This document shows, piece by piece, positions 7,210 to 34,892 of a DNA stretch of 50,883 nt. Source of the stretch: a virus; the IMG/VR virus record IMGVR_UViG_3300042114_000121, positions 1 through 50,883 of that record; one strand, given 5' to 3'. Each line of letters opens with the position of its first letter. Positions within the stretch are counted from its first letter, which is position 1. The notes under the pieces were generated by a model that saw nothing but the letters and a program-made list of their open reading frames with translations, had not been told where the DNA came from and did not search any database. A program made the translations under genes and the position numbers.

Positions 7210-7775
7210 ACATAGAAACTTTTATGGTTGCATTAATTCAGAACTTTCGTCTTGATGCTCATGTAGTTGCTGTTGCAAAAGTTATGATTGATGAAAGTGG
7301 TGTTGTTGATTTTGGTGGACTTATGAGAGAAGTGTTAACAAGTAAGAAATTTGACTTTTTGAGTAAGTTACAAGATGGATTAGATAAATACAAAATTGTT
7401 GTTCAGTTAGATGAGATTGATGCTTGTAAAGTGTATTCGTATGCTGATAAGCTTTTTATTAAAACTACTAGTGTTTTTGATGAGATAAATTTTTTAGTAC
7501 AAACTGGTAAAGATATTAACTCTGACACTATGACTAGGTTTATATATGCTAACTTTGATGAGAAAGATAGACAAGTGTTAAAGCTTATTGGAGATAGAAA
7601 TAGACTTTTGTTTATGATTAGAAATCTTAGAGCGGCACTAAGAGAGCAAATAAAGCAAAATGTAGAGAAGTTATCACTTGAAAAGAAAAAAAGTGTTTTA
7701 GCTATACCTATGGCTCAAAGAAACAATGATATTGATAGTAGAGTGTTAAAACTTATACAAGGTGGTAAAAAATGA
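7206..7775 (+). CDS. Hypothetical protein, 189 aa
   Basis: A mostly helical soluble protein (MVALIQNFRLDAHVVAVAKV; IGDRNRLLFMIRNLRAALRE). The start overlaps the previous stop and its end overlaps the methyltransferase start. No family was recognised. Confidence 0.65.
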   Translation: MNIETFMVALIQNFRLDAHVVAVAKVMIDESGVVDFGGLMREVLTSKKFDFLSKLQDGLDKYKIVVQLDEIDACKVYSYADKLFIKTTSVFDEINFLVQTGKDINSDTMTRFIYANFDEKDRQVLKLIGDRNRLLFMIRNLRAALREQIKQNVEKLSLEKKKSVLAIPMAQRNNDIDSRVLKLIQGGKK

Positions 7776-8839
7776 ATTTTTCATATAGATGGAATTTATC
7801 TGATTTAGATAAAGTTGAAAAAAATGGTTATAAAGTTTTCAGCTGTTTTGCTGGAGGTGGTGGAAGTAGCCAAGGTTATAAAATGGCTGGATTTGATGTT
7901 ATAGGGTGTAATGAAATAGACCCACGACAAATGGAAATATATACTCATAATTTAAAGCCAAAATATAGTTATTTAGAGGACATTAGAACTTTTAGATTAA
8001 GAGATGATTTACCAAAAGAATTTTTTAAATTAGATATTTTAGATGGAAGCCCTCCTTGCACAGTTTTTAGCACTTCAAATAATTCAAAAGATGAGAAATC
8101 AAAAGAGAAAAAATTTAGAGAGGGTCAAATAAAACAAAGACTTGATGATTTGTTTTATGAATTTATAGAGTTAGCTAACAAGCTAAAGCCTAAAGTAATA
8201 GTAGCTGAAAATGTAATAGGTTTAACAAACTTAAATAACAAAGAATATATGATGAAAATTTATGAACATTTTAGAGATATAGGATATATGATTTCTCATT
8301 ATACATTTGACTTTAGTGAATTAGGACTACCTCAAAGAAGAAATAGAGTAATATTTTTTGCAGTTAGAAAAGATATTTATGTTGAAACTACTGATTTGTA
8401 TGGAGAAATGCCATACTTAAGCATAAATAAAAATTATAAAAAAATACCATATAAAGACATAGAAGAAAAAAATGCAATAATTGGAACTGTTAAAGTTTAT
8501 CCGAAAGCATTATATTGGTGGGAAAAAACAAATGCTGGAAAGTATTTTTCAAATGCGACAGAAAGAGAACTTGGAAAAAGGTCTTATATGGACTACTATA
8601 AGACAGATAGAAATAAAGTTTTACCTACAATAACAGCTCATACAGAGGGTGGTAATTGCTATAATCAAGATATACCAAGAACATTAACAAAGTTAGAACT
8701 CAAATTAGCAACATCATTTCCTTTAGATTATGACTTTTTAGAAGAAAATCCGAAATATGTATGTGGTATGAGCGTTCCACCTTTAGCTATGTATATAATA
8801 TCAAAAGAAATTAAAACTCAATGGGTAGATAAAAATTAG
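7772..8839 (+). CDS. C5-cytosine DNA methyltransferase
   Basis: A 355-aa protein with the motif series of 5-methylcytosine methyltransferases: motif I FSCFAGGGGSSQG (~residues 23-35), catalytic motif IV PPC in GSPPCTVFS, motif VI AENV, motif VIII LPQRRNRV and a C-terminal motif IX/X region (ITAHTEGG; IPRTLTKLELKLATSFP). It transfers a methyl group from S-adenosylmethionine to cytosine; the target sequence cannot be read from the protein. There is no partner restriction enzyme, so it most likely protects phage DNA from host restriction. Confidence 0.92.
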   Translation: MNFSYRWNLSDLDKVEKNGYKVFSCFAGGGGSSQGYKMAGFDVIGCNEIDPRQMEIYTHNLKPKYSYLEDIRTFRLRDDLPKEFFKLDILDGSPPCTVFSTSNNSKDEKSKEKKFREGQIKQRLDDLFYEFIELANKLKPKVIVAENVIGLTNLNNKEYMMKIYEHFRDIGYMISHYTFDFSELGLPQRRNRVIFFAVRKDIYVETTDLYGEMPYLSINKNYKKIPYKDIEEKNAIIGTVKVYPKALYWWEKTNAGKYFSNATERELGKRSYMDYYKTDRNKVLPTITAHTEGGNCYNQDIPRTLTKLELKLATSFPLDYDFLEENPKYVCGMSVPPLAMYIISKEIKTQWVDKN

Positions 8840-16882: not shown

Positions 16883-17100
16883 ATAGAGATGAAGCTAAAA
16901 ATGACTTATTTTAAAAGATAGGACTAGGTTTAATTGGTAATTGTACAAAAATATCTAATTTCATTGATAAAATCTATGATAGTTTTGAAAATAAATCTTG
17001 TGATGGTTGCATACATAAAGATGCAAAAGATAAAAATGAACTGATTGGCTATAGTTGTTTAGAGTATAGTAGACACTATGCTGATAAATTTAAAAAATAA
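16879..17100 (+). pseudogene. Small gene interrupted by an in-frame TAA
   Basis: ATG at 16879 opens MNRDEAKNDLF, then TAA at 16912-16914, then the same frame stays open for 61 codons (KIGLGLIGNCTKISNFIDKI...CDGC...KFKK). The start (RDEAK) and IDKIYDSFE resemble RDEAKDKI and IDKIYEGFE of the protein at 46983-47192, so the two parts once formed one protein. There is no good internal start after the stop. Nonsense mutation is the simplest explanation; readthrough or a sequence error are alternatives. Confidence 0.6.
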
Positions 17101-17110
17101 GGAGAAAAAG

Positions 17111-17770
17111 ATGAAAATTGAAAATTATAAAAAAATGGTAGAGCTACAACATAGCTTTAATATCTTAGCGATGGGCGAAAACTACTTAGATTTAAATCTT
17201 AATTGGAATTCGGCAATTATCGCTGAAAGTGGAGAGATGCTCGATAGCTTAGGCTATAAATGGTGGAAAAAACAAGAAGTAGATATGGATAATGCAAAAG
17301 TTGAAGCTATTGATTTGTTACATTTTGTGATAAGTGAAAGAATGCAAAGTTATAATCATAGTGAATTTGACACAATTATAGAAACATCAAGAGATTTTTC
17401 AGTATTTAATTCAAAAGTATTTAAAAATGGTTTTTTTCTTTATGGTGAAGATATAAAAAATAATATAAATACATTAAATTATGACAAAATTGATAGATTT
17501 ATGGTACTTAAAGAAATATTTAACAAACTTGAAATGTCAAACGAAGATGTTTATATAGCATACATCGTTAAAAACTGTTTGAATAAATTTAGACAAAACA
17601 ATGGATACAAAGAGGGAACTTATCAAAAGATTTGGATTGATAAAGAGGATAATGTTGTAGCTTATGAGTTAGCAAAAAATATCGGTGCAGACGAAAACCT
17701 CTTTGATTTGCTTTATGATGAATTAGAAACTACTTATAGCTACTACTTTAAAAGTGGTGTGAAAAAATGA
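17111..17770 (+). CDS. dut: Dimeric (all-alpha) dUTPase
   Basis: A 219-aa protein of the all-alpha NTP pyrophosphatase superfamily (dUTPase_2). It shows NWNSAIIAESGEMLDSLGYK with KWWK, then EAIDLLHFVISE, then LNKFRQNNGYKEGTY with KIW and EDN. These carry the acidic metal ligands (ExxE and ExxD) and the substrate segment of Campylobacter/Leishmania-type enzymes. It hydrolyses dUTP to dUMP, limiting uracil in DNA and feeding dTMP synthesis. The ATG at 17111 follows AAGGAG; an upstream ATG at 17078 lies in the preceding broken gene. Confidence 0.9.
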   Translation: MKIENYKKMVELQHSFNILAMGENYLDLNLNWNSAIIAESGEMLDSLGYKWWKKQEVDMDNAKVEAIDLLHFVISERMQSYNHSEFDTIIETSRDFSVFNSKVFKNGFFLYGEDIKNNINTLNYDKIDRFMVLKEIFNKLEMSNEDVYIAYIVKNCLNKFRQNNGYKEGTYQKIWIDKEDNVVAYELAKNIGADENLFDLLYDELETTYSYYFKSGVKK

Positions 17771-18031: not shown

Positions 18032-18580
18032 ATGTTTAAAATATTAGAGCCACATTGTGAACCAAAAAGAGGTACTAAATACAGTGCTTATGTTGATTTA
18101 TTTAGTCGTGAAGATGTTGTTATAGGTGCTGGAGAAACTAAGGTTATTAAATTGGGGGTTAAATTGGATACTGGGGAACTAAAAGAAAATTGGAAACAAA
18201 AAAGTGGACTAATTTTTAAGCCTGATGATGCAAAGCAATCGCTTATTGCTTTTGGATTTAATACATTTTTAAAATCCCACTACCTAGAAGTAGCACTTAG
18301 AAGCTCACTAGCAGTTAAAGGCTTAATCATAGCAAATGGTATAGGGATTATTGATTTAGATTATCCTGATGAGATAGGATTGATTGTTCATAATCCAGTA
18401 AAAGTAGTTGATATTTCACTTAAAGATTATGCACCATCTTATAGAGTAGATGGAAGAAGTTTTCATATAAACAAGGGCTACAAAGTTTGTCAATGCACAC
18501 TTAAAGAGCATAAGGGATTTCTTATTGGATATGAAAGCGATGTTGTTCGTGAGGGTGGATTTGGGAGTACAGGAAAATGA
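18032..18580 (+). CDS. dut: Trimeric (all-beta) dUTPase
   Basis: A 182-aa protein with all five trimeric dUTPase motifs in order: YSAYVDLFS (I), LRSSLAVKG (II), NGIGIIDLDYPDEIG (III), KGYKVCQCTL (IV) and the glycine-rich lid EGGFGSTGK (V) near the C-terminus. It catalyses the same dUTP to dUMP reaction as the gene 260 bases upstream but has an unrelated fold. GGAG precedes the ATG. Motif II has Ser for the usual Gly (RSSLA), a tolerated change. Insertions at ~55-75 lengthen it relative to the ~150-aa norm. Confidence 0.92.
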   Translation: MFKILEPHCEPKRGTKYSAYVDLFSREDVVIGAGETKVIKLGVKLDTGELKENWKQKSGLIFKPDDAKQSLIAFGFNTFLKSHYLEVALRSSLAVKGLIIANGIGIIDLDYPDEIGLIVHNPVKVVDISLKDYAPSYRVDGRSFHINKGYKVCQCTLKEHKGFLIGYESDVVREGGFGSTGK

Positions 18581-21798: not shown

Positions 21799-22296
21799 TT
21801 AAAACTCCACTGCTTTAAACCCAAAAGTGAATATTTCAACGCTATTTGGGATATATGTATATCTCACTATAAAATTATCAAGTTCAGCACCAATAAAAGG
21901 CAGAATTATAGGGCTTACATCACTCATCCCATCTTTACACCTTAAAGTATCCCAACCTTTTGTACAATATCCTTCTTGTCTCCCAAAAGATATACCGCCA
22001 CCAATCTTTACTTTTTCATAGTTGATAGGGTGGTATTGAAGTGTTACCATGTCGAATTGAGTAGGTTTGGAATAGCTATTAATAAACTCACTATGTTCGA
22101 TAATAATATTATCATTAAACTGATACTCAACACCAATAAGTCTGTTATCTTCATTCCACTCGCCTTTTGCGATATGATTAACTTTACTTCCAGCTTTTAT
22201 ATTTATACTATCAGCCCTTACATTTAATGCAAAGACTAGTGCCATTAAGATAGGTACAATAAATAGATTGTCTTTAAAAACTTGTTTGCTGGTCAT
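21799..22296 (-). CDS. Exported beta-barrel-like protein, 165 aa
   Basis: An N-terminal signal segment (FIVPILMALVFALNVRADS) is followed by alternating beta-strands (RLIGVEYQFNDNIIIEHSEF; VKIGGGISFGRQEGYCT) and a terminal strand ending in Phe (EIFTFGFKAVEF), the outer-membrane barrel signature. Two cysteines in EGYCTKGWDTLRCKDG may form a loop disulfide. It could alter the host surface, for example blocking receptors or modifying lipid A, but no catalytic motif is evident. Confidence 0.6.
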   Translation of the reverse strand: MTSKQVFKDNLFIVPILMALVFALNVRADSINIKAGSKVNHIAKGEWNEDNRLIGVEYQFNDNIIIEHSEFINSYSKPTQFDMVTLQYHPINYEKVKIGGGISFGRQEGYCTKGWDTLRCKDGMSDVSPIILPFIGAELDNFIVRYTYIPNSVEIFTFGFKAVEF

Positions 22297-22590: not shown

Positions 22591-23700
22591 TTAGTTGAAG
22601 TTAAACAAATTTGGTTGAAACTTTCCATATTCATTTATGTTTTTCTTCCTCAAAACTATCAAGTTTCTTATTGGATTCTTAATTTTTATTATATCACAAA
22701 ACTTTTTAAATTTTTGCTTTACATTTTTATTTATAGATGTTCTTAGTAGATTATAACTATCACTTGCTTTTATCCAGACATAGTATGACATAAAGCTCTG
22801 AATACTATTTAAACTTATTCTTTTTTTATCTATATCTATTGATATTTTTACAAAACTTTTCTTTATAGAGTTTCTAAGCATAGTATGTGTTCCAAAAAAT
22901 CTAAATCCTAAAAAATCTATACCTCTTATTCTTGTTGGAAATATTTGCCAATTTTCTTTTAGTTTAAGATGGAGTTCTTCATTTAGGTATTTTTCTATTT
23001 TATTTTTTATATCGTGCAAATAATATTTATCACTGTGAAATATTGCTATATCATCTGCATATCTTATGTAGTATTTTATTTTTAGTTCTTCTTTTATCCA
23101 GTGGTCAAAATAACTTAGATAATAGTTCCCAAAAGTTTGGCTTGTGTAGTTTCCTATCGGCAGACCTTTTGTACTATCAATTATCTCATCTATTAAATTA
23201 AGTGTATCTTCACATTTTATTTTCTTTCGTATAAGCTTCTTTAGTGTCTCGTTGTCTATACTAGGATAGTATTTTTTAATGTCCATCTTGAAACAGTATT
23301 TTGTATTCTCTATATCTTTTAAGAAAAACTCCATCCTATCTTTTGCTTTATGTACTCCTCTGCCTTTTATACTTTGATATGTATCTTTTATGTATGTCTG
23401 TTCCAATATTGGCTGTATTATTTGCAGTAGTGCATGATGTATTATCCTATCAGGAAAATATGGAAGCTTGTATATTGTTCTTGCTTTTCCTCTTTCGATT
23501 CGTTTATCAAGTGTGTATTCTGATGTTTTGTATGATTTATTTATAAGCATATCGTGTATTTTATTTATGTATAAATGTGGATTTTGTGATATTTTTATAA
23601 CATCTTTATATTTGCTTTTTCCTCTTTTAGAATTATTAAAAGCATTTAATATGTTTTGTCTATGAAATATTCTATTATATAAATTACTTTTTCTTTTCAT
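22591..23700 (-). CDS. Diversity-generating retroelement reverse transcriptase
   Basis: A 369-aa reverse transcriptase: KMDIKKYYPSI (first catalytic Asp, ~140), GLPIGNYTSQTF (~179-190) with the Ser-Gln typical of DGR enzymes in place of group II PQG...SP, and YIRYADDIAIF with catalytic YADD at 214-217. There is no maturase or endonuclease domain. A template repeat lies 119 bases upstream and the variable repeat gene just beyond, so a DGR function is well supported. It would copy template RNA with errors at adenines into cDNA for target replacement. Confidence 0.93.
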   Translation of the reverse strand: MKRKSNLYNRIFHRQNILNAFNNSKRGKSKYKDVIKISQNPHLYINKIHDMLINKSYKTSEYTLDKRIERGKARTIYKLPYFPDRIIHHALLQIIQPILEQTYIKDTYQSIKGRGVHKAKDRMEFFLKDIENTKYCFKMDIKKYYPSIDNETLKKLIRKKIKCEDTLNLIDEIIDSTKGLPIGNYTSQTFGNYYLSYFDHWIKEELKIKYYIRYADDIAIFHSDKYYLHDIKNKIEKYLNEELHLKLKENWQIFPTRIRGIDFLGFRFFGTHTMLRNSIKKSFVKISIDIDKKRISLNSIQSFMSYYVWIKASDSYNLLRTSINKNVKQKFKKFCDIIKIKNPIRNLIVLRKKNINEYGKFQPNLFNFN

Positions 23701-23818
23701 TCGTTTTTGTTACCTTTGAGTTTTCAATTTCTTTACTAGCACATAGTAAGGCTTTGTTATGTGTTCGACCAAGAGGTCTGGTTGTATTTGGCATAAATTT
23801 TAATATACCAACAAAAGT

Positions 23819-23921
23819 GAGCGACGATATTCCAATTCGTATCAGAAGAGGCAAGGCTGAAACCCAAACAGCCGACTCCAGCACTCGAAGAAGTATTCAA
23901 ATAGCTACCAGACTTCAACAC
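23819..23921 (-). repeat. DGR template repeat (TR)
   Basis: A 103-base segment aligned to 23984-24086 at a constant offset of 165 with six differences, all at template adenines (T on the plus strand): plus-strand 23828, 23831, 23836, 23837, 23840 and 23914. The core reads ...GATACGAATTGGAATATC, with AAT codons at two variable positions. It lies between target gene and RT, the canonical position. A GACC/GGTC hairpin near 23768-23779 lies in the TR-RT spacer. Confidence 0.92.
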
Positions 23922-23978
23922 TCGTGAGCCAAACACAACCATTAAACAAACTTTAAGTTTACTTCATTTTAAAAATTT

Positions 23979-25340
23979 TTAACGAGCGACGACATGCCAA
24001 CCCGCATCAGAAGAGGCAAGGCTGAAACCCAAACAGCCGACTCCAGCACTCGAAGAAGTATTCAAATAGCTACCAGACCTCAACACCAGCGCTCCTGAAT
24101 TATACCAATAGTAATCTGTTACTTTACTTACACTACTAGCACCTATAAGTTTAATTAAAAAGTTTGAGAATATTTTTGCCTGATACCCATTTGATGTTGG
24201 TTGTGCGATGTCTGTGCCATCGAAATCAGTAGCTCTTATGTATACTCCACTTGAGGTATCATCTGCAAAAGTATCTGTTGCTTTACATATATATGGTACT
24301 GCACTGTTTACATTTATACCATCTACCCATTGCCATAAGTGACCAAAGAAGTTTTCGATACCTCTATACGAGTTTGCTATGACTAAAACACCAGTATCTG
24401 TTCCTCCAAAATCACTAGGTTTACCAGTTATGCTTCCTGATTTGTTCCCTAAAGAAGTTGTGACACCTGTTATTACTACACTGTTTGCATATCCTCCACC
24501 ACTTGTTTTTTCTGTATATCCAGGTATTACAGATTGACTATCGTGTGTCATATACTCTATCAAGAAAAGTTGTCTAATAAGAGTGTGTTCGTGCCAAGAG
24601 TGTTGTTTGCCACCACCGTTTGCGATAAGCGTTCTTCCTTGAGCTCTTGTTATAACCGTACAAGGCTTGAATCCAACAACAGAACGAATAGCATCTGCTC
24701 CTAAGTCAAGAGTAGGAGCTGAACCTGTACCATCGACATAAGCTGTAGCACTTGCATCATATAGACTTCCCTCGAAGGCTGTAAGATAAGCATATTCAAA
24801 CTCATTTACTGAATTTGTACCGTCACCAGAATCTGCCCATCCTGATTTTCTAAATCTATCGTGAGTTGTGTATCCTGTAGCTGGTGTTTGTGACATCATA
24901 AAGTACATCAAGTTACCAACTTTATAGTTTTTCCAATAGCATTTAGGAACTTCCACAAATACTTGTCTTGAACCATACCCACCAATGTCCGCAACTGAAC
25001 TTGTACCATCTTCATATTTTGTTGAATCATTTGCATCAAGATATTTATATACACTTCCCTCCCAGTTTGGATTTCCTACACACACAACTCTTCTCATTTG
25101 TTGTTGGATAACTGGTACACTATGCCCTACTCTGTAATAAGTATCATTTACCTCATCCCAAACTATCCCATATGGTTTTGAAGTGTCATAAACCATAAGA
25201 CCATCATCTTGTATGACTTTAGCTGCATCCATAAATGCTTTAAAACCAACCCCCAATTTATCCATATTCACAGGATTTGTCATATTCGCACTAAAAGCTT
25301 CTAAAAACTTTTGCTCTATTGATGCTCTTGTTTCTGCCAT
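23979..25340 (-). CDS. DGR target: receptor-binding tail protein, C-type lectin fold
   Basis: A 453-aa protein. The C-terminal third has the formylglycine-generating-enzyme/C-type-lectin pattern of many DGR targets: SYRGIENFFGHLWQWVDGIN (~325-344), then YYWYNSGALVLRSGSYLNTS and SLASSDAGWHVVAR at the end. The last 35 residues are the variable repeat. The N-terminal part probably attaches to the tail (the first 50 residues are helical). It would recognise the host surface, with variable residues clustered on the ligand-binding face. Confidence 0.9.
   Translation of the reverse strand: MAETRASIEQKFLEAFSANMTNPVNMDKLGVGFKAFMDAAKVIQDDGLMVYDTSKPYGIVWDEVNDTYYRVGHSVPVIQQQMRRVVCVGNPNWEGSVYKYLDANDSTKYEDGTSSVADIGGYGSRQVFVEVPKCYWKNYKVGNLMYFMMSQTPATGYTTHDRFRKSGWADSGDGTNSVNEFEYAYLTAFEGSLYDASATAYVDGTGSAPTLDLGADAIRSVVGFKPCTVITRAQGRTLIANGGGKQHSWHEHTLIRQLFLIEYMTHDSQSVIPGYTEKTSGGGYANSVVITGVTTSLGNKSGSITGKPSDFGGTDTGVLVIANSYRGIENFFGHLWQWVDGINVNSAVPYICKATDTFADDTSSGVYIRATDFDGTDIAQPTSNGYQAKIFSNFLIKLIGASSVSKVTDYYWYNSGALVLRSGSYLNTSSSAGVGCLGFSLASSDAGWHVVAR
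23984..24086 (-). repeat. DGR variable repeat (VR) in target gene
   Basis: The last 103 coding bases (apart from the end of the final codon and the stop) of the tail protein gene. Relative to the template, codons 421, 446, 447, 449 and 450 are changed (K to R, T to A, N to G, N to H, I to V), by five A-to-G and one A-to-C changes. A short AT-only palindrome (23969-23982) and a small hairpin at 23948-23960 lie in the VR-TR spacer. Confidence 0.92.
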
Positions 25341-26951: not shown

Positions 26952-29900
26952 CTATGCCCCTATTGCCATTCGTTCTGTGTTATCTCTTGTATCTTTGCTT
27001 AAAAGTTCAATTTTTTCCATTCTGCTGTTAAGTTTTTTGACTTCTTCTGTTTGTTTGTTTATAGCCTCAATTATACCTTTATTTTCATTTGTAGTCAAAT
27101 TATTTGCAGGAGTTTGATTTACTTTTATTCCATATTTTCTAAGTACATCTGAACTTTGTGGGTCGATTATCATTTCTCTTTCATGTGCTTGTATTACCAT
27201 ATCGCTTGGAAGGTATGGAGTTCCCTTTGCGAATGATGGGAGTTCATATCCTTCGGATTTAAGAGAGTCTTTAATAGCTGACTCAATTTTATCTATTTCT
27301 CCTTGTGCTGGAACTCCTCCGTATTTAGAATAAAACTCCTCAAGACTAGCCTCTGGTTTTAATATATTGAATAAAAATTTTTCAAATATTGTTATCCCAT
27401 CAGGCAAATATGCTTGGTAAAGGTCATAGGATAATATCTTTTTCCCAGCCTCGATATAGTCCACAATATCAGATACACTTGATGTATAGTTCTTATCAAA
27501 TGCTGATTCTTTATTTTTTTTAGTAACCTCATCATATGTAGCAAAGCCTTTCTGAAATACATCTGTATTTAAAAGCTCTGGTTTTGCTTCTTCTGCATAA
27601 CTGCTTAAGAATACTTTTGAGAAAGTGTCTTTGTCTTGAGATATGTTTTTAAAATCTTTATTAGCAAGTTTAGTAAACAATTCCAAATCTTGAAACTGTG
27701 TACCTGTAGAAAGTGAAAATTCTTTCAGGTTCTCAAATGTTATTGTATCTGTTCTTGATAAATCATCTAAATGTTTCGCTGTATCAGTTGTGCTAAGCGA
27801 TAGGTAACTTAATGAGTTTCTTAAATCTTCTAGCTCTTTGTTAAATGTTGTAAAATCTTTTGCCTCAAACGATTGTCTAAAAGCGATTTCATCTTGTGTG
27901 TCTAAAAGCCCACCTGCCTTAAAATCATCAAAGGTAAGTGTTTTGTCTATGCTTAGTTGTGATTCTATATTGCTATTATATGTTTTAAGTTGTTCAACTA
28001 AGGAACTTATAATACCAGTTTCTTCTGCTACACCTATAACATTTCCGTTTGCATCTACTATTTGAGATTTGATTATCTTATTATCAAAGTCAAGATTGTT
28101 TTTTAATCCATCAAGTTCAGATATTAGATTATTTGTGATACCTGTATTGTCTCCTATTTGAGCTGATTGTATGTTTCCTGCAAGTTGATTTATATCTCCT
28201 ACTAAGTCTTGAAGCTTTGACGACTCTGTTTCTGTTAGGTTCTCGATACCTTTTGCTCTTAATGCTTTTATCTCATCTGATTTGCCCCAAAAATCTTGAA
28301 TAAGTCTTGATTGACTTTGTCCATCTTGTGTATTCCCTATGAGATTTGCTATTGTATCTTCTATCGATTCGCCCATATTTGTAAAAGCGTCTGATAGTTT
28401 CTTGACCTTGTCTGTTGCTACTTCAATTGTTTTTGTTTGTTCCTCTGATAGTTTTCTTTGAAGCTCTGCCATATCCATTTCTACTGACATTTGAGTGTTC
28501 AGCATATCTTTAGCATTTTGTGTAGCTTCTGCAAATCCATCTGCAAGAAGCATAACCCTACCATAAAGCTCTTGACCAGATTTGGTTGTTAAGTCTATTG
28601 AACTTACTAATTGTTTAAATCCTTCATTACTTTTTGGTAAATTATATATTCCTAGTTTTTCAAACTCTTTTGTCATTTGCTCTGCGGAAAACTTATTTTG
28701 TTCAGCATCTGTTAAAAAGTTTTCAAAGTATCCGCTCATTGCATCGCTTAAAGCTCCAACTCCACCTGCACCCTCTACCATTGAGGTTGTTATTCCGTTT
28801 ATATCTTCTCCAATAAACTTAAATTGTTCTCTCAATTTGTTTAGCGAGATAACACCACCTACTACATCTTCTATAGTTCCACCAAGAACTTTTACTATTT
28901 CATCTATTCCAGTTGCTGAATTATAAAATGCTTTTTCATAGTTAAGTACAGATTGTTTAAATATTTCAATATCTACATCTCCTTGCTTATCTATAATATC
29001 TGTATGTTTTATATCTTCATACCCAGCACCCATTCGTGATATGTAGTATTCTGCTACTTCCATACCACTTGATACCCTCGTAAGTGTTTGTGATATTGTT
29101 TCTCCTGCCTTTACAAATCCATCAAGTGTTGTGGCTGTTATGTCAAGCCAAGCTGTATGTGCATCTGATTTTGCTTTGTCATAAGCATCGTTTGCTTCTT
29201 TTAACTGTTGTGTTGCTGATTTTACAACTGATGTATGTTCCTCTGTTGCAATTACACTCATACCCTCACTATCTTGTATCCATTTCTCGACACCCCACTC
29301 ATTATATAGAATATTATGAGATGTTTGAGTAATATCTTTGAAGTCTGCTATAGTCTTATTGAAAGCTTCATATGCAAAATCTTGTATAGCATAAGCTTCA
29401 GTAACCATTTCATCCATAGTCTTACCAAAAACATTCCCGAGTAGCTCTTGTATCTCTTCTCCACTTTTTCCTTTTAAAGATATTTTTCCAAGTTTAACTG
29501 CATAATCATCAAGCCTATCCATAATAGATTGACCACTTGTATCAAGCATATCTCCAGTAGATACTACAGTATCGTACATACTATCTAAAATGAGTTCAAA
29601 TTGGTTTCTTATCTCTTCACTCATAGCCTCTGTGTATGTAGTATAAGAGGTTGAAGTGCTTTTGCTAAACCAAGATTTTTTAGTCGTGGTTGTAGCTATA
29701 GTTTGGTATGCTGAACCCTCAAAATCTTCTTTCGCTTTAGTTATCAACTGTTCGCCAAATATTAACCCTGCATCTGATAAAGCTCGTGATTGTGATGTCT
29801 TACCGAATAGTCCACCAGCTATACTATTTACTGCACCACCCAAAGCTTTAGTTATAGCTCCGTCTAATAAAAGTTTATCAGCGATTAAAGCACTAGCTAC

Positions 29901-32900
29901 CCAAGGCATTGCTGCACCTGCTGTGCCTAACAAACTTGTACCACCTATTGAAGTACCAACAACCCCACCAAAAGTAGTACCAGCAGCCATATATCCAAGT
30001 CCTGCTGTTCCAATTCCTAAAGCAGCACCAGCCCCACCAATATTTGTACCAACTCCGACTTTATTATTAAACCCTGTATCATACCCACCAGTATATCCTT
30101 CTCCAAGTGCAAATCCACCTTTTTGTAGCAAGATTGATGTTACTCCACCTATTTTATTGTCGATAGATATGAGCGATTTGTTCATTTGTGCTAAAAGATT
30201 GTGTTCAGGTTTTGCTAGGTCTGATAAGATTTCAAGCGACTTAGATATAGACTCACTACCAGCTTCAGCATCGCCTAAAACTGTACCAGTTCCAGTGTTT
30301 GCTTTTATAGCACTTAGTTCATCGTATGAAGTAGATGTTTTATCTCCACCGCTTAATGCTCCACCAACAATGATACCAAACGATGCTAAAAGTGCTGCCA
30401 TAGCCATCATTCGTGGTACTGCGGTTACTGGCTCTAGTGTTCCCTGTAGTGCTACTGCAGCTGTACCAGCAGCAGTAGCTTCTGCCCCTTTTAAAGCAAC
30501 TACTGCTGTTGTTGTTGTGAGCTGTGTTGCTAGTGCTGACATTTGCATTGCCATTTGTGCCATATACATTGCTTGTTGTACTTTTTGGAAGTTTTTAGCT
30601 TGTGTTGAACCTTCTTTGTAAAACGAACCTATTGCACCAGCCATATTTCCATAAGCTCCAACTGTATCTGTTGAGTATTTTTGTTGTGCTTTTGCTCTGT
30701 CTGTATCTGACTTGCTAGTATCTGCCATTATGCTGTTGTACTCTACAAGAGAATTATTCATATCTACAAAACCATTCGTAAGGGAAGCTATAGAATTTGA
30801 TACATCATCAAAACCATTTAGTTTTATGTCTATAGTCATATCTTCTTTATATTGTTTTATCAGATTTTCATTTTTAAATCTTTCTTGTGATTTTTCAAAT
30901 ACCTCATCAAGTTTTTTCTTTTCTTCTTCTGTAATGCTTGATAATTTTGCTATTGAATCTTCAAATATTGCTTTATTTGCATCTAATCTTTCTTTTAGTC
31001 CAAGTTCATCTTCTGGCTTTTTAATAGTATATTTTCCAATAAGGCTATTTATATCAGATAATCTTTTTTGTTCTAAATCTATACCTTTTTGTTCATTGTC
31101 AAGCTTCTCTCTTGATAGTCCTAAGAGATATTCTTCTTTTTTTGTAATAGCCTCATCAAGTTTAGCTTTTGTTGTTAATATTACAACTTGTTTATTATCT
31201 CCTTCTGTCATCTTTTCTGCTATATTTAACTGTTTAAAAAGAGTATCTTGTTCGTCTTTTAGTATTTCATATTTTAGTTTTTGAATATCATCCATCTCAC
31301 TATACTGTATAGCTTTTGTTTTGGATGATGTTTCTTGTGTCATCTTTAATATTTTTTCTTGTAGTTTTGCTTCTAGCTCTAGCTTTCCAATACCGTATTC
31401 TTTCTTCTCTTCTGTATTTAGTATAGATGATGCTTTGTTTGATTCTTTTTTGTTTGCTTCTGCTAATTCTTTTTCTTTGTCTTTTTTTCTATCTTCTAAA
31501 TCTTTTATGATTTGAAGTCTTGCATTTATAGCTTTTTTATCAAGTGTTTTATCTTTTGATTCTACTGTTACTGCATTTATACTTGTTTGAAGTTTTTTAA
31601 TTTCTTCTTGTAATATTTGTGCTTGTGTAAGTGGTTTTTTTATACTCTCAAGAAGATTAAGTGCATTTTTTGTAGCACTTCCTTCTGTCATAAGGTCGCC
31701 AAATGCTTTGGCTGTTGTTTGTATTCCACTTGCCACATTTACTTGTGCTTCATATAGCTCTTTTGTTTTATACATTACATCTATTTCAGCTTGAATTGTA
31801 TCTTTTTGTGCTTGTAGTTCATCTATTTCTGATTGTTTTAGTTTTCCAAAGCTAGTTCTTTCTCCTAACATATTTAATGAACCATAGCTTCCAGCAGTTA
31901 TTTTATCACCAAGTTTTTTTCTTTCAGCCATAAGTTTTGATAAACCTACATTTAAATCTGATAATCCTACTTTTGCTTGTGCTAAAGAAAGTTTTTTAAT
32001 ATCTTCAAGTTTTAATCTCATAGCATTTCTAAGATTTTCTTCTTGTTCTAAAGTTTTACCTATTGTGTAATTATATAGTTCGTATGCTCCAATCATAGCC
32101 ATCATTGGTAGGTTATTTTTCATAATACCCATAAGTCCAGTAAATGCACCACCTACATTTGTAAGACCAACTTTTGACATATCTACTGCTGTAGTAAATC
32201 TATTTGTATTTGTTGTTGATGTAGCCATAGCTGTAGCAAAAAGTCCAGTACCTTTTACTGCATTTGATGTTTCACTTGCAAATCTTCCTGTAGCCTGTGA
32301 AGCAAATGTCATAGAAGAAGTTACTTTTCCTGTTCCTCTTACTAGATCAACTGCTCCAACTGTTAGTTTTTCTATAGTTGGTAAAAAGTTGTTCCATACT
32401 AGCATTCCGCCTTTTATAACTGCAAGATAAGTAGCAACTTGCACAAGTGGAGGTACTACTGTTGCTACTGCATTTCCTACATTTTCAAAACTTTTTGCTA
32501 TTGATTCTATTTTTTCAGGAGTAAGATAGTTTGCTACATTTGCGAAAACTTTAGTTAATCCATCAAAAATAGGTTTTGTTGTTGTTGCAGCTAAAGACTG
32601 ATAAGCATCTTTCATACGGTTAAATTGTATGTCATATGTCATAAGTCCTTCAAGAACATCAAATGGTGCTAACATTTCATCGAGAAGTTTTTTTACTCCA
32701 TCTTTACCACTTGCTTTTGCTTTTTCCATAGCTTTATTTGCTTCTGATGGACTTCCAAATAGCATAGTAGATATAATAGAATCTGTAGAGGCATTTCCGC
32801 TTAGTAAACTTCTTACCTCCTCCCTTGTACGGTCTAAAGGCTGTCCTATCGCACCACTAATATTAGCCATTCTTTTTGATAGTTGGATAGTATTATCAAT

Positions 32901-34892
32901 TATTTCTTTTATGCTACCGCCCATAGAGTTACCCATAGATAAAGTTTGTCCTGTGGCTTGTTGGAAAATCATAATCAAATCTTCAAATGTACCAGCTGTA
33001 TCAATAGCAGCTGTTTTTATTTTTTTCATTGTTTCAGCTGCTATACTTTGTGACATAGCAAATTTTTGTTGATTTGTTACTGCTTGACCTGTTGATGTTG
33101 TCATTCTTGTATTTGCTGTTATAAGTGCTGCTATACCTTGAGTATTTGACTCTATTGTTCTATTTACATTTATCCCAACTCCAATAGTAGCATCCCAAGC
33201 ACCTTTTAGCATATAGTAAGACACTATAAGAGTTTCTATTTGTCTAAGATGTCTTACTACTGCATTTGTAGAAGATTCGTAGCTACCTTTGTTTTCTTTT
33301 AGGAGTTTTCCTTCTGTTGCTAGTCCTTTATTGTATTGGTCTTGAGATATAGCACCTGATGATATCATTGAGTCTAGTCGTTTTTTTGATTCGTTGTATT
33401 TTACTTGAGCTGATGTGAGCTCATATGTGTTTTTATACTGTTCTTTAATATTTTGAAGATTTTTTTCATCTTCTGCTCTTTTTATTCTATTTATTTTTGT
33501 TTCATTAGCAAGATTTTGTATTTTCTCTTTTTGCATTGACTCTTGATATTCTCTTACATAAGAGTCTATCTTTGATTGCTTTTGTGCTGATATAGCTAGT
33601 TCTTCTGCTTCTTTTTCTCTTATTTTTCTTTTATCTTGAGTTTCTTTTGCTAAATTTTGTATTCGTTCTTTTTGTGAGTTTTCTTGAAAATCTCTAACTA
33701 AAGCATCTATTGACATTTGTTGTCTTGCTGATGCTTCTAATGCTTTTGATTCTTTAGCTCTATTATCATTCCATTCTTTATCAGATTTTGCAAGAAAATC
33801 TTTTTGCTCCTGAATAAGAATACTTTGTGATTTTCTATCAATATCCTCTATTTCATTCCATAGTGACATTCTATTTTGTAATATAGATTTACTTTCTGCT
33901 ATTGATTCTATTGAGCCTCCAGAAAGATTTATAGGTGCTTGTATTTGTCTTTGTGATAGTGGTGTAGTTTTATCTGCAAAAGTTGACATCCCAGTTCTTT
34001 TTGCAAGTTCTGCATTTGCTCTTTTTATGGCATTCATATATTCTTTTTCATTGATAATATTTTTATCCATTGCCTCTTTGAGTATGTTGATATCTGATGT
34101 ATATTTTTTTATTACCTGTTGAGTTTGTGTATATATTCCAAGTTCTTCTTTTAGATATTCAGCATTATGTGGATGTGCTTTTAGGATTTCTTTTTGTTGA
34201 TTGAGTTGTGATTTTAATTTTTCTAGTTTTTGTTGTTGTTCATCTATATCTTTTTTGTTGACTGATATTGTGTCTCTTAAACCATCTATTTTTATTTTTT
34301 GTTTTTCTGTGTATAGTTGTTTTTGTGCTTTGAGTGATTTTAATTCTTCTGCTTCGAGTTTTTTGTTTTCAGCTATATTATATGATGTTAATTTTGATAG
34401 CTCTTGATAGTCTTGACTTCTTATTACATCTGTTAGTTCTTTTCTTAATGCTCTAATTTTTGCAGTATGATTTATTAAGTCTTGCTCTGTTTTTGCATAG
34501 TCTTTTTTTTGTTTTGCATTTCCTTTTGATATATCTCCTCCTAATGGAGATAATAATGCTTGTTGTGTAGCTTGTGCTTTTTCTTTTAATTGTTCTAAAT
34601 CATTAAGTTGTTTTTTAAATGAGCTAGTCATAGCTTTCATACTTTCTTCTTGCTTACGATTATTAGAGATAGTATTATTTACTATCTCTTCATTTCTCTT
34701 TGCAAACTTTTCTCTTTCTTTGCCCTGTTCTTTTAAAGCTGATTGAATATCAGTATAATGTCCTTTTTGTAACTTGCTTTGCTCATCTATTGATGTTGTG
34801 AGAAGTTTAATCTCTTTTTCAAGGTCGTTTATATTCTTTTTAGCATCTTTAGTGTTTGCTTGTAGTGTTATTGTTATTTTGTTGCTTGACAT
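26952..34892 (-). CDS. Tail tape measure protein
   Basis: A 2646-aa protein. Residues 1-~500 are heptad-rich coiled coil (NINDLEKEIKLLTTSIDEQS). Hydrophobic segments occur around ~1490-1520 (AAALLASFGIIVGGALSG) and a Gly/Ala-rich stretch at ~1610-1690. The C-terminal YLPSDMVIQAHEREMIIDPQ is typical of tape measure proteins. It scaffolds tail tube assembly, setting tail length, and is ejected with DNA. Its size predicts a very long non-contractile tail; with no sheath gene seen, a siphovirus tail is inferred. The start overlaps the GT reading frame. Confidence 0.93.
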   Translation of the reverse strand: MSSNKITITLQANTKDAKKNINDLEKEIKLLTTSIDEQSKLQKGHYTDIQSALKEQGKEREKFAKRNEEIVNNTISNNRKQEESMKAMTSSFKKQLNDLEQLKEKAQATQQALLSPLGGDISKGNAKQKKDYAKTEQDLINHTAKIRALRKELTDVIRSQDYQELSKLTSYNIAENKKLEAEELKSLKAQKQLYTEKQKIKIDGLRDTISVNKKDIDEQQQKLEKLKSQLNQQKEILKAHPHNAEYLKEELGIYTQTQQVIKKYTSDINILKEAMDKNIINEKEYMNAIKRANAELAKRTGMSTFADKTTPLSQRQIQAPINLSGGSIESIAESKSILQNRMSLWNEIEDIDRKSQSILIQEQKDFLAKSDKEWNDNRAKESKALEASARQQMSIDALVRDFQENSQKERIQNLAKETQDKRKIREKEAEELAISAQKQSKIDSYVREYQESMQKEKIQNLANETKINRIKRAEDEKNLQNIKEQYKNTYELTSAQVKYNESKKRLDSMISSGAISQDQYNKGLATEGKLLKENKGSYESSTNAVVRHLRQIETLIVSYYMLKGAWDATIGVGINVNRTIESNTQGIAALITANTRMTTSTGQAVTNQQKFAMSQSIAAETMKKIKTAAIDTAGTFEDLIMIFQQATGQTLSMGNSMGGSIKEIIDNTIQLSKRMANISGAIGQPLDRTREEVRSLLSGNASTDSIISTMLFGSPSEANKAMEKAKASGKDGVKKLLDEMLAPFDVLEGLMTYDIQFNRMKDAYQSLAATTTKPIFDGLTKVFANVANYLTPEKIESIAKSFENVGNAVATVVPPLVQVATYLAVIKGGMLVWNNFLPTIEKLTVGAVDLVRGTGKVTSSMTFASQATGRFASETSNAVKGTGLFATAMATSTTNTNRFTTAVDMSKVGLTNVGGAFTGLMGIMKNNLPMMAMIGAYELYNYTIGKTLEQEENLRNAMRLKLEDIKKLSLAQAKVGLSDLNVGLSKLMAERKKLGDKITAGSYGSLNMLGERTSFGKLKQSEIDELQAQKDTIQAEIDVMYKTKELYEAQVNVASGIQTTAKAFGDLMTEGSATKNALNLLESIKKPLTQAQILQEEIKKLQTSINAVTVESKDKTLDKKAINARLQIIKDLEDRKKDKEKELAEANKKESNKASSILNTEEKKEYGIGKLELEAKLQEKILKMTQETSSKTKAIQYSEMDDIQKLKYEILKDEQDTLFKQLNIAEKMTEGDNKQVVILTTKAKLDEAITKKEEYLLGLSREKLDNEQKGIDLEQKRLSDINSLIGKYTIKKPEDELGLKERLDANKAIFEDSIAKLSSITEEEKKKLDEVFEKSQERFKNENLIKQYKEDMTIDIKLNGFDDVSNSIASLTNGFVDMNNSLVEYNSIMADTSKSDTDRAKAQQKYSTDTVGAYGNMAGAIGSFYKEGSTQAKNFQKVQQAMYMAQMAMQMSALATQLTTTTAVVALKGAEATAAGTAAVALQGTLEPVTAVPRMMAMAALLASFGIIVGGALSGGDKTSTSYDELSAIKANTGTGTVLGDAEAGSESISKSLEILSDLAKPEHNLLAQMNKSLISIDNKIGGVTSILLQKGGFALGEGYTGGYDTGFNNKVGVGTNIGGAGAALGIGTAGLGYMAAGTTFGGVVGTSIGGTSLLGTAGAAMPWVASALIADKLLLDGAITKALGGAVNSIAGGLFGKTSQSRALSDAGLIFGEQLITKAKEDFEGSAYQTIATTTTKKSWFSKSTSTSYTTYTEAMSEEIRNQFELILDSMYDTVVSTGDMLDTSGQSIMDRLDDYAVKLGKISLKGKSGEEIQELLGNVFGKTMDEMVTEAYAIQDFAYEAFNKTIADFKDITQTSHNILYNEWGVEKWIQDSEGMSVIATEEHTSVVKSATQQLKEANDAYDKAKSDAHTAWLDITATTLDGFVKAGETISQTLTRVSSGMEVAEYYISRMGAGYEDIKHTDIIDKQGDVDIEIFKQSVLNYEKAFYNSATGIDEIVKVLGGTIEDVVGGVISLNKLREQFKFIGEDINGITTSMVEGAGGVGALSDAMSGYFENFLTDAEQNKFSAEQMTKEFEKLGIYNLPKSNEGFKQLVSSIDLTTKSGQELYGRVMLLADGFAEATQNAKDMLNTQMSVEMDMAELQRKLSEEQTKTIEVATDKVKKLSDAFTNMGESIEDTIANLIGNTQDGQSQSRLIQDFWGKSDEIKALRAKGIENLTETESSKLQDLVGDINQLAGNIQSAQIGDNTGITNNLISELDGLKNNLDFDNKIIKSQIVDANGNVIGVAEETGIISSLVEQLKTYNSNIESQLSIDKTLTFDDFKAGGLLDTQDEIAFRQSFEAKDFTTFNKELEDLRNSLSYLSLSTTDTAKHLDDLSRTDTITFENLKEFSLSTGTQFQDLELFTKLANKDFKNISQDKDTFSKVFLSSYAEEAKPELLNTDVFQKGFATYDEVTKKNKESAFDKNYTSSVSDIVDYIEAGKKILSYDLYQAYLPDGITIFEKFLFNILKPEASLEEFYSKYGGVPAQGEIDKIESAIKDSLKSEGYELPSFAKGTPYLPSDMVIQAHEREMIIDPQSSDVLRKYGIKVNQTPANNLTTNENKGIIEAINKQTEEVKKLNSRMEKIELLSKDTRDNTERMAIGA

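Follow-up and report, generated by a model that had tools for sequence, protein, structure and literature searches.

Is the template repeat (TR) of a diversity-generating retroelement (DGR) a fixed master copy, or can it be rewritten by the diversified sequence that it helps to make? The TR has been described as invariant, with no TR substitutions among hankyphages (PMC6199706). The locus studied here raises the question in the form of a reverse transcriptase (RT), a TR and a variable repeat (VR) at the tail-gene end of a tailed phage, in a 50,883-base IMG/VR virus record (IMGVR_UViG_3300042114_000121), which we analysed at its full length and refer to as the window. The cassette comprises the following features:

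23979–25340, minus strand: target gene, a 453-aa phage tail protein of receptor-binding type (phrog_5302 tail, E 3.8e-55), with the VR at its C-terminus
23984–24086, minus strand: VR, in frame from codon 419 of 453, 94% identical to the TR
23819–23921, minus strand: TR, 103 nt with 17 adenines, between the target gene and the RT, its position and spacing conserved in relatives
23701–23818, minus strand: TR–RT spacer, 118 nt, of a length comparable with that in relatives
22591–23700, minus strand: DGR-type RT, 369 aa, intact (phrog_1423, E 1.1e-106)
23137–23166, minus strand: GLPIGNYTSQ motif in the translation, RT residues 179–188, PIGNY and SQ being invariant in 8 aligned RTs
23050–23061, minus strand: YADD catalytic motif in the translation, RT residues 214–217, Tyr-214, Asp-216 and Asp-217 being invariant in the 8 aligned RTs

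Our re-scan returned the repeat pair exactly as given in a preliminary description of this DNA (23819–23921 and 23984–24086, length 103, offset 165), and no third copy was found in the entire record. On the minus (coding) strand there are six mismatches along the 103 nt, all of them among the 17 template adenines and none among the 86 other positions (hypergeometric p 8.7e-6), which bears out the adenine-only pattern claimed there. The mismatches lie at TR positions 8, 82, 85, 86, 91 and 94, with five adenines changed to G and one to C. Translation of the 453-aa reading frame gives the changes K421R, T446A, N447G, N449H and I450V from TR to VR, the same five residues (421, 446, 447, 449 and 450) that had been listed as varied. 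The VR is contained in the 3' end of the target gene, its repeat end falling 5 nt short of the end of the reading frame, and the TR lies outside, between target and RT. An AT palindrome follows the VR (23969–23982) and folds no better than shuffled sequences (z 0.4); hairpins downstream of the VR are important in BPP-1 (PMC3240598). The spacer probably belongs to the template RNA. Its predicted fold is not clearly better than that of shuffles (z -1.9), the spacers of the related loci L003–L005 are likewise not clearly above shuffles, and an Rfam scan of the whole window gave no match. An IMG/VR search for sister phages with an exact 27-base TR pattern returned no other contig.

The RT with YADD and GLPIGNYTSQ segments that had been noted at the outset is indeed present, both motifs lying in one intact 369-aa reading frame. 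Ranked against PDB entries, it matches BPP-1 Brt best with 184 bits (8ub7, the matched fragment of which we verified as part of BPP-1 brt), compared with at most 91 bits for group II enzymes and at most 45 for defence RTs (DRT). In a maximum-likelihood tree it is found on the DGR side together with BPP-1 Brt, split from the group II enzymes with 100/100 support, and forms a small clade with L003, L004 and L005, to which it is 60–66% identical. The nearest RTs in a phage collection, from crAss-like and other gut phages, share 48% identity. The suggested comparison with DGR and group II enzymes thus places the RT among the former. NCBIfam and PADLOC do report group II and Drt3a matches, the NCBIfam ones far under their curated cut-offs, and one could argue from these that the enzyme belongs to a group II intron, a retron or a defence (UG/DRT) system and that the repeats arose by chance or by duplication. 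A Brt score twice that of any group II RT, the 100/100 separation in the tree and the TR/VR pairs found beside nearly all RT relatives refute this explanation, to which we attach a negligible probability.

Among these relatives, adenine-biased TR/VR pairs were located beside the RT at 72 of 80 loci in the first set, at 92 of 101 (including L195, which is a false call in low-complexity sequence) and at 32 of 36 further loci; several of the loci without a pair lie at contig ends. Comparison with related genomes, which had been proposed as a check, hence reveals the same cassette in nearly all of them. The scanner used tolerates mismatches at TR adenines and so favours them by design; over 114 distinct pairs it recorded 1692 mismatches, of which 1656 fall on adenines. 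Its bias is bounded by a control on 21 loci, in which C, T or G as the permitted base gave 0, 1 and 6 pairs, respectively, compared with 32 for A; the six G pairs are presumably reciprocal readings of the A pairs. Comparisons of one TR with another, as used below, are independent of the adenine bias of the scanner.

The target protein has no match in PDB, Pfam or NCBIfam at the sequence level, and querying IMG/VR with it returned no confirmed relative. Its PHROG match supports the tail protein assignment made in the preliminary description, and all 48 homologues that we used belong to phrog_5302. One target homologue is found in the archaeal Methanosarcina virus MetMV (MK170447, 43296–44624; 33% identity over 78%). 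An earlier model built from 20 sequences was discarded (pLDDT 61, below 50 in the VR region), and its fold matches are meaningless. The AF2 model from a 49-sequence alignment (pLDDT 87) has its best fold match in TaqVP from Thermus aquaticus (PDB ID 5vf4; probability 1.00, E 1.7e-8), at 12% sequence identity over the fold and a TM-score of only 0.43–0.50, and matches Mtd (E 0.026) and formylglycine-generating enzyme (FGE) more weakly, as well as models of crAss-like tail fibres. TaqVP, Mtd and the formylglycine-generating enzymes all belong to the C-type-lectin class. The model thus supports a C-type-lectin-type fold carrying the VR; the 'lectin-fold' label used earlier went beyond what sequence alone could show and gains support from the TaqVP match and, weakly, from Mtd. 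Tail family and predicted fold together suggest that the protein may serve in receptor binding, and that its variation may change tropism and track changes of the host surface.

The adenine-only TR/VR pattern, the grouping of the RT, the fold match and the presence of the same cassette in relatives leave us with hardly any doubt that the cassette is a DGR, as had been proposed. The BPP-1 DGR, to which it had been likened, has the order mtd-avd-TR-brt. The two share adenine-specific mismatches, a DGR-type RT and a lectin-fold tail protein with a variable C-terminus, and to this extent the analogy stands. It is a loose one because the window lacks an avd between VR and TR and has the architecture of crAss-like DGRs; in addition, no supported hairpin follows the VR, and the target is closer to TaqVP than to Mtd. 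Only the TR sits between target and RT, and the neighbouring reading frames gave no avd match; a PF05635 search for avd was uninformative, as no control matched either. We classify the cassette as a DGR that lacks avd and is arranged target/VR-TR-RT, as in crAss-like phages, and this gene order without avd fits lineage 3 of Wu et al. as cited in PMC7290462. In crAssphage LMMB and related crAss-like phages the order is likewise target-VR-TR-RT without avd, the target being a tail (collar fibre) protein with the VR at its 3' end (PMC7290462). Near RTs and tail fibre models add to this likeness, whereas the window phage differs from crAss-like phages in its size and head genes, and its cassette differs by a loss of TR adenines: the 103 nt contain 17, of which just 6 are changed in the VR.

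This loss becomes apparent when TRs are compared with each other. We aligned 39 TRs of large targets and defined a conserved adenine column as one in which 60% or more of the others have A. The window keeps 12 of 22 such adenines, L004 12 of 24 and L099 16 of 24, whereas the remaining 36 TRs keep 83–100%. Other conserved bases are kept at an ordinary rate (32 of 46 in the window, 37 of 49 in L004). In a pairwise measure over 102 distinct TRs, the worst adenine keepers are L218, the window and L004, in that order. In the preliminary description the TR counted as an unaltered master, whereas the comparison shows that about half of the adenines conserved in relatives are gone. All the losses map to one tract:

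23842–23913, minus strand: adenine-depleted tract, TR positions 9–80, containing all 10 lost adenine columns of 22 and identical to the VR

None of the 9 remaining adenines in positions 9–80 differs between TR and VR, compared with 6 of 8 outside (Fisher p 0.0023). In the first set of relatives, the median fraction of template adenines changed in the VR is 0.67, and at this rate 0 of 9 has a probability of 5e-5. The window has the lowest fraction of that set (6 of 17), followed by L004 (7 of 18), and the TR comparison attributes the low value in the window to lost template adenines. The TR of L005 translates to VLKSGGNLNNSSNAGVSYLNGNNSSSNVNWNICC and that of the window to VLKSGSYLNTSSSAGVGCLGFSLASSDTNWNIVA. 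Asn AAT codons have become TAT, ACT, AGT, GGT, CTT and GAT in the window TR, which are the products expected in a VR; most of the lost AAT codons still end in T, and the 3' end of the TR, AATTGGAATATC, is intact. The lost codons resemble VR codons that have become frozen. Because of the lost adenines the cassette is now less variable than its architecture suggests: the protein repertoire calculated for the window TR is 10^9.5, compared with 10^13.1 for L003 and 10^14.3 for L005. We infer that an overwritten template shrank the repertoire from about 10^13–10^14 to 10^9.5.

Template changes of the same type are seen between close relatives. L099 is found in a strain genome of Pumilibacter muris and L167 in a virus contig. 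Over 7.1 kb the two loci share 98.0% identity, yet 11 of 40 adenines differ between their TRs, compared with 0 of 102 other positions (p 2.9e-7). The TRs of L252 and L167 differ at 7 of 40 adenines and again at 0 of 102 other positions (p 9e-5). The three sister loci are 96–98% identical, with TR differences at adenines only and in separate tracts. Of the altered sites, 10 of the 11 in L099 and all 7 in L252 are A in the outgroup L253, so A is the ancestral state and was lost in L099 (TR positions 26–96) and in L252 (positions 96–123). A more distant pair, L117 and L218 (about 77% identity over 1.5 kb), has 8 TR differences, all of them A in L117. Most of 91 sister pairs, which are not mutually independent, have 0–2 TR adenine differences, even where 6–8 other TR positions have changed. 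In L075/L078 and L017/L029, the 6–7 TR differences include none at A, and template adenines are thus better conserved than the rest of the TR. The altered TR bases of L252 (TR 1445–1586, VR 1251–1392) match its own VR at 4 of 7 sites. This locus also has four non-A mismatches (103, 107, 108 and 115), VR bases that cannot be derived from the present TR, as if the TR had changed after the VR was written.

How did the window template lose its adenines? An ordinary DGR with an ordinary template could have arrived at a low adenine count by slow point mutation and selection, nothing having been overwritten. The window RT has diverged by 34–40% from its nearest relatives and backbone bases of the TR have changed too, as this explanation would have it, but adenines are normally the best-kept TR sites, as the sister pairs just described illustrate. 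The window losses are moreover confined to a single tract in which TR equals VR and lost AAT codons mostly retain their T, and point mutation does not produce TRs that change only at A between loci 96–98% identical; we consider slow mutation unlikely. The other explanation, that the true TR is rich in adenines and that the assembler put VR sequence into it, has to be taken seriously for an IMG/VR contig in which TR and VR are near-identical and 62 nt apart and the altered tract exactly equals the VR, since VR reads placed in the TR by short-read assembly would mimic such a tract. Chimerism, however, requires k-mers that are shared at each of the two junctions, and the signature is seen independently, with different bases, in the window and in L004. 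It also occurs in the sequenced strain genome of L099, where TR and VR differ from each other at 21 of 30 adenines, so that this TR is not a VR copy placed by an assembler. For the window, we consider an assembly artefact unlikely.

An avd-less DGR whose template has been partly rewritten by diversified sequence is thus the reading that we favour and hold to be reasonably probable, for a window that is known from an assembled virus contig and offers six TR/VR differences in total. By homology with known DGRs, reverse transcription of the TR RNA would introduce errors at adenines, and the resulting cDNA would replace the VR at the 3' end of the C-type-lectin tail gene, varying residues near the C-terminus. 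Unlike in most relatives, the middle of the window TR would then have been overwritten by diversified sequence, freezing formerly variable residues and leaving present changes only at 421 and 446–450. The source of the overwritten tract would most likely be a VR, by recombination, which explains both the TR=VR tract and the intact ends in the window; alternatively, mutated cDNA may have homed into the TR. In L252, simple copying from the present VR does not account for the altered TR bases, which match that VR at only 4 of 7 sites. A broader reading, to which we give an even chance, is that DGR templates are not fixed: diversified tracts would occasionally be written back, making favoured residues hereditary while the repertoire shrinks. 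About 100 distinct templates would then include four or more separate cases (the window, L004, L099 and L252, possibly also L218), the window phage representing a late stage.

Looking for papers on gene conversion, mutation or variation of TRs, we found none that describes adenine-specific rewriting of a TR, in a search that covered few subscription papers and is weak evidence of absence. TR variants have been reported in T. denticola, without a reading as adenine-specific rewriting (PMC4891356). As a DGR, the cassette adds one more uncultured tailed phage to a well-populated class, and the template observation matters more than this membership. If TRs can indeed be rewritten by diversified sequence, DGRs would gain a route to a permanent, selected binding site and would also have a built-in route to decay. 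Worn cassettes of this kind would be undercounted, because the six A-to-B changes in the window are below the DiGReF default of 7 (PMC3521204).

The genome around the cassette has several further features. Just downstream of the DGR lies a gene of the PagP family (21799–22296, minus strand; phrog_3600, E 3.9e-10). Phage-borne members of this family are linked to lipid A acylation and resistance to antimicrobial peptides, and the gene suggests a Gram-negative host. Head and terminase proteins match scattered phages at 22–32% identity (Nitratiruptor, Thiohalocapsa, Roseobacter and others), and for this reason we name no host. A tape measure protein of 2646 aa, very long for a 51-kb contig, is encoded at 26952–34892 (minus strand), and a 391-aa phrog_6278 protein is encoded between its gene and the DGR. 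Two dUTPases, one from the dUTPase_2 and the other from the dUTPase family, are located near each other at 17078–17770 and 18032–18580 (both plus strand), and a C5-cytosine DNA methylase is found at 7772–8839 (plus strand; PF00145, E 2.2e-46).
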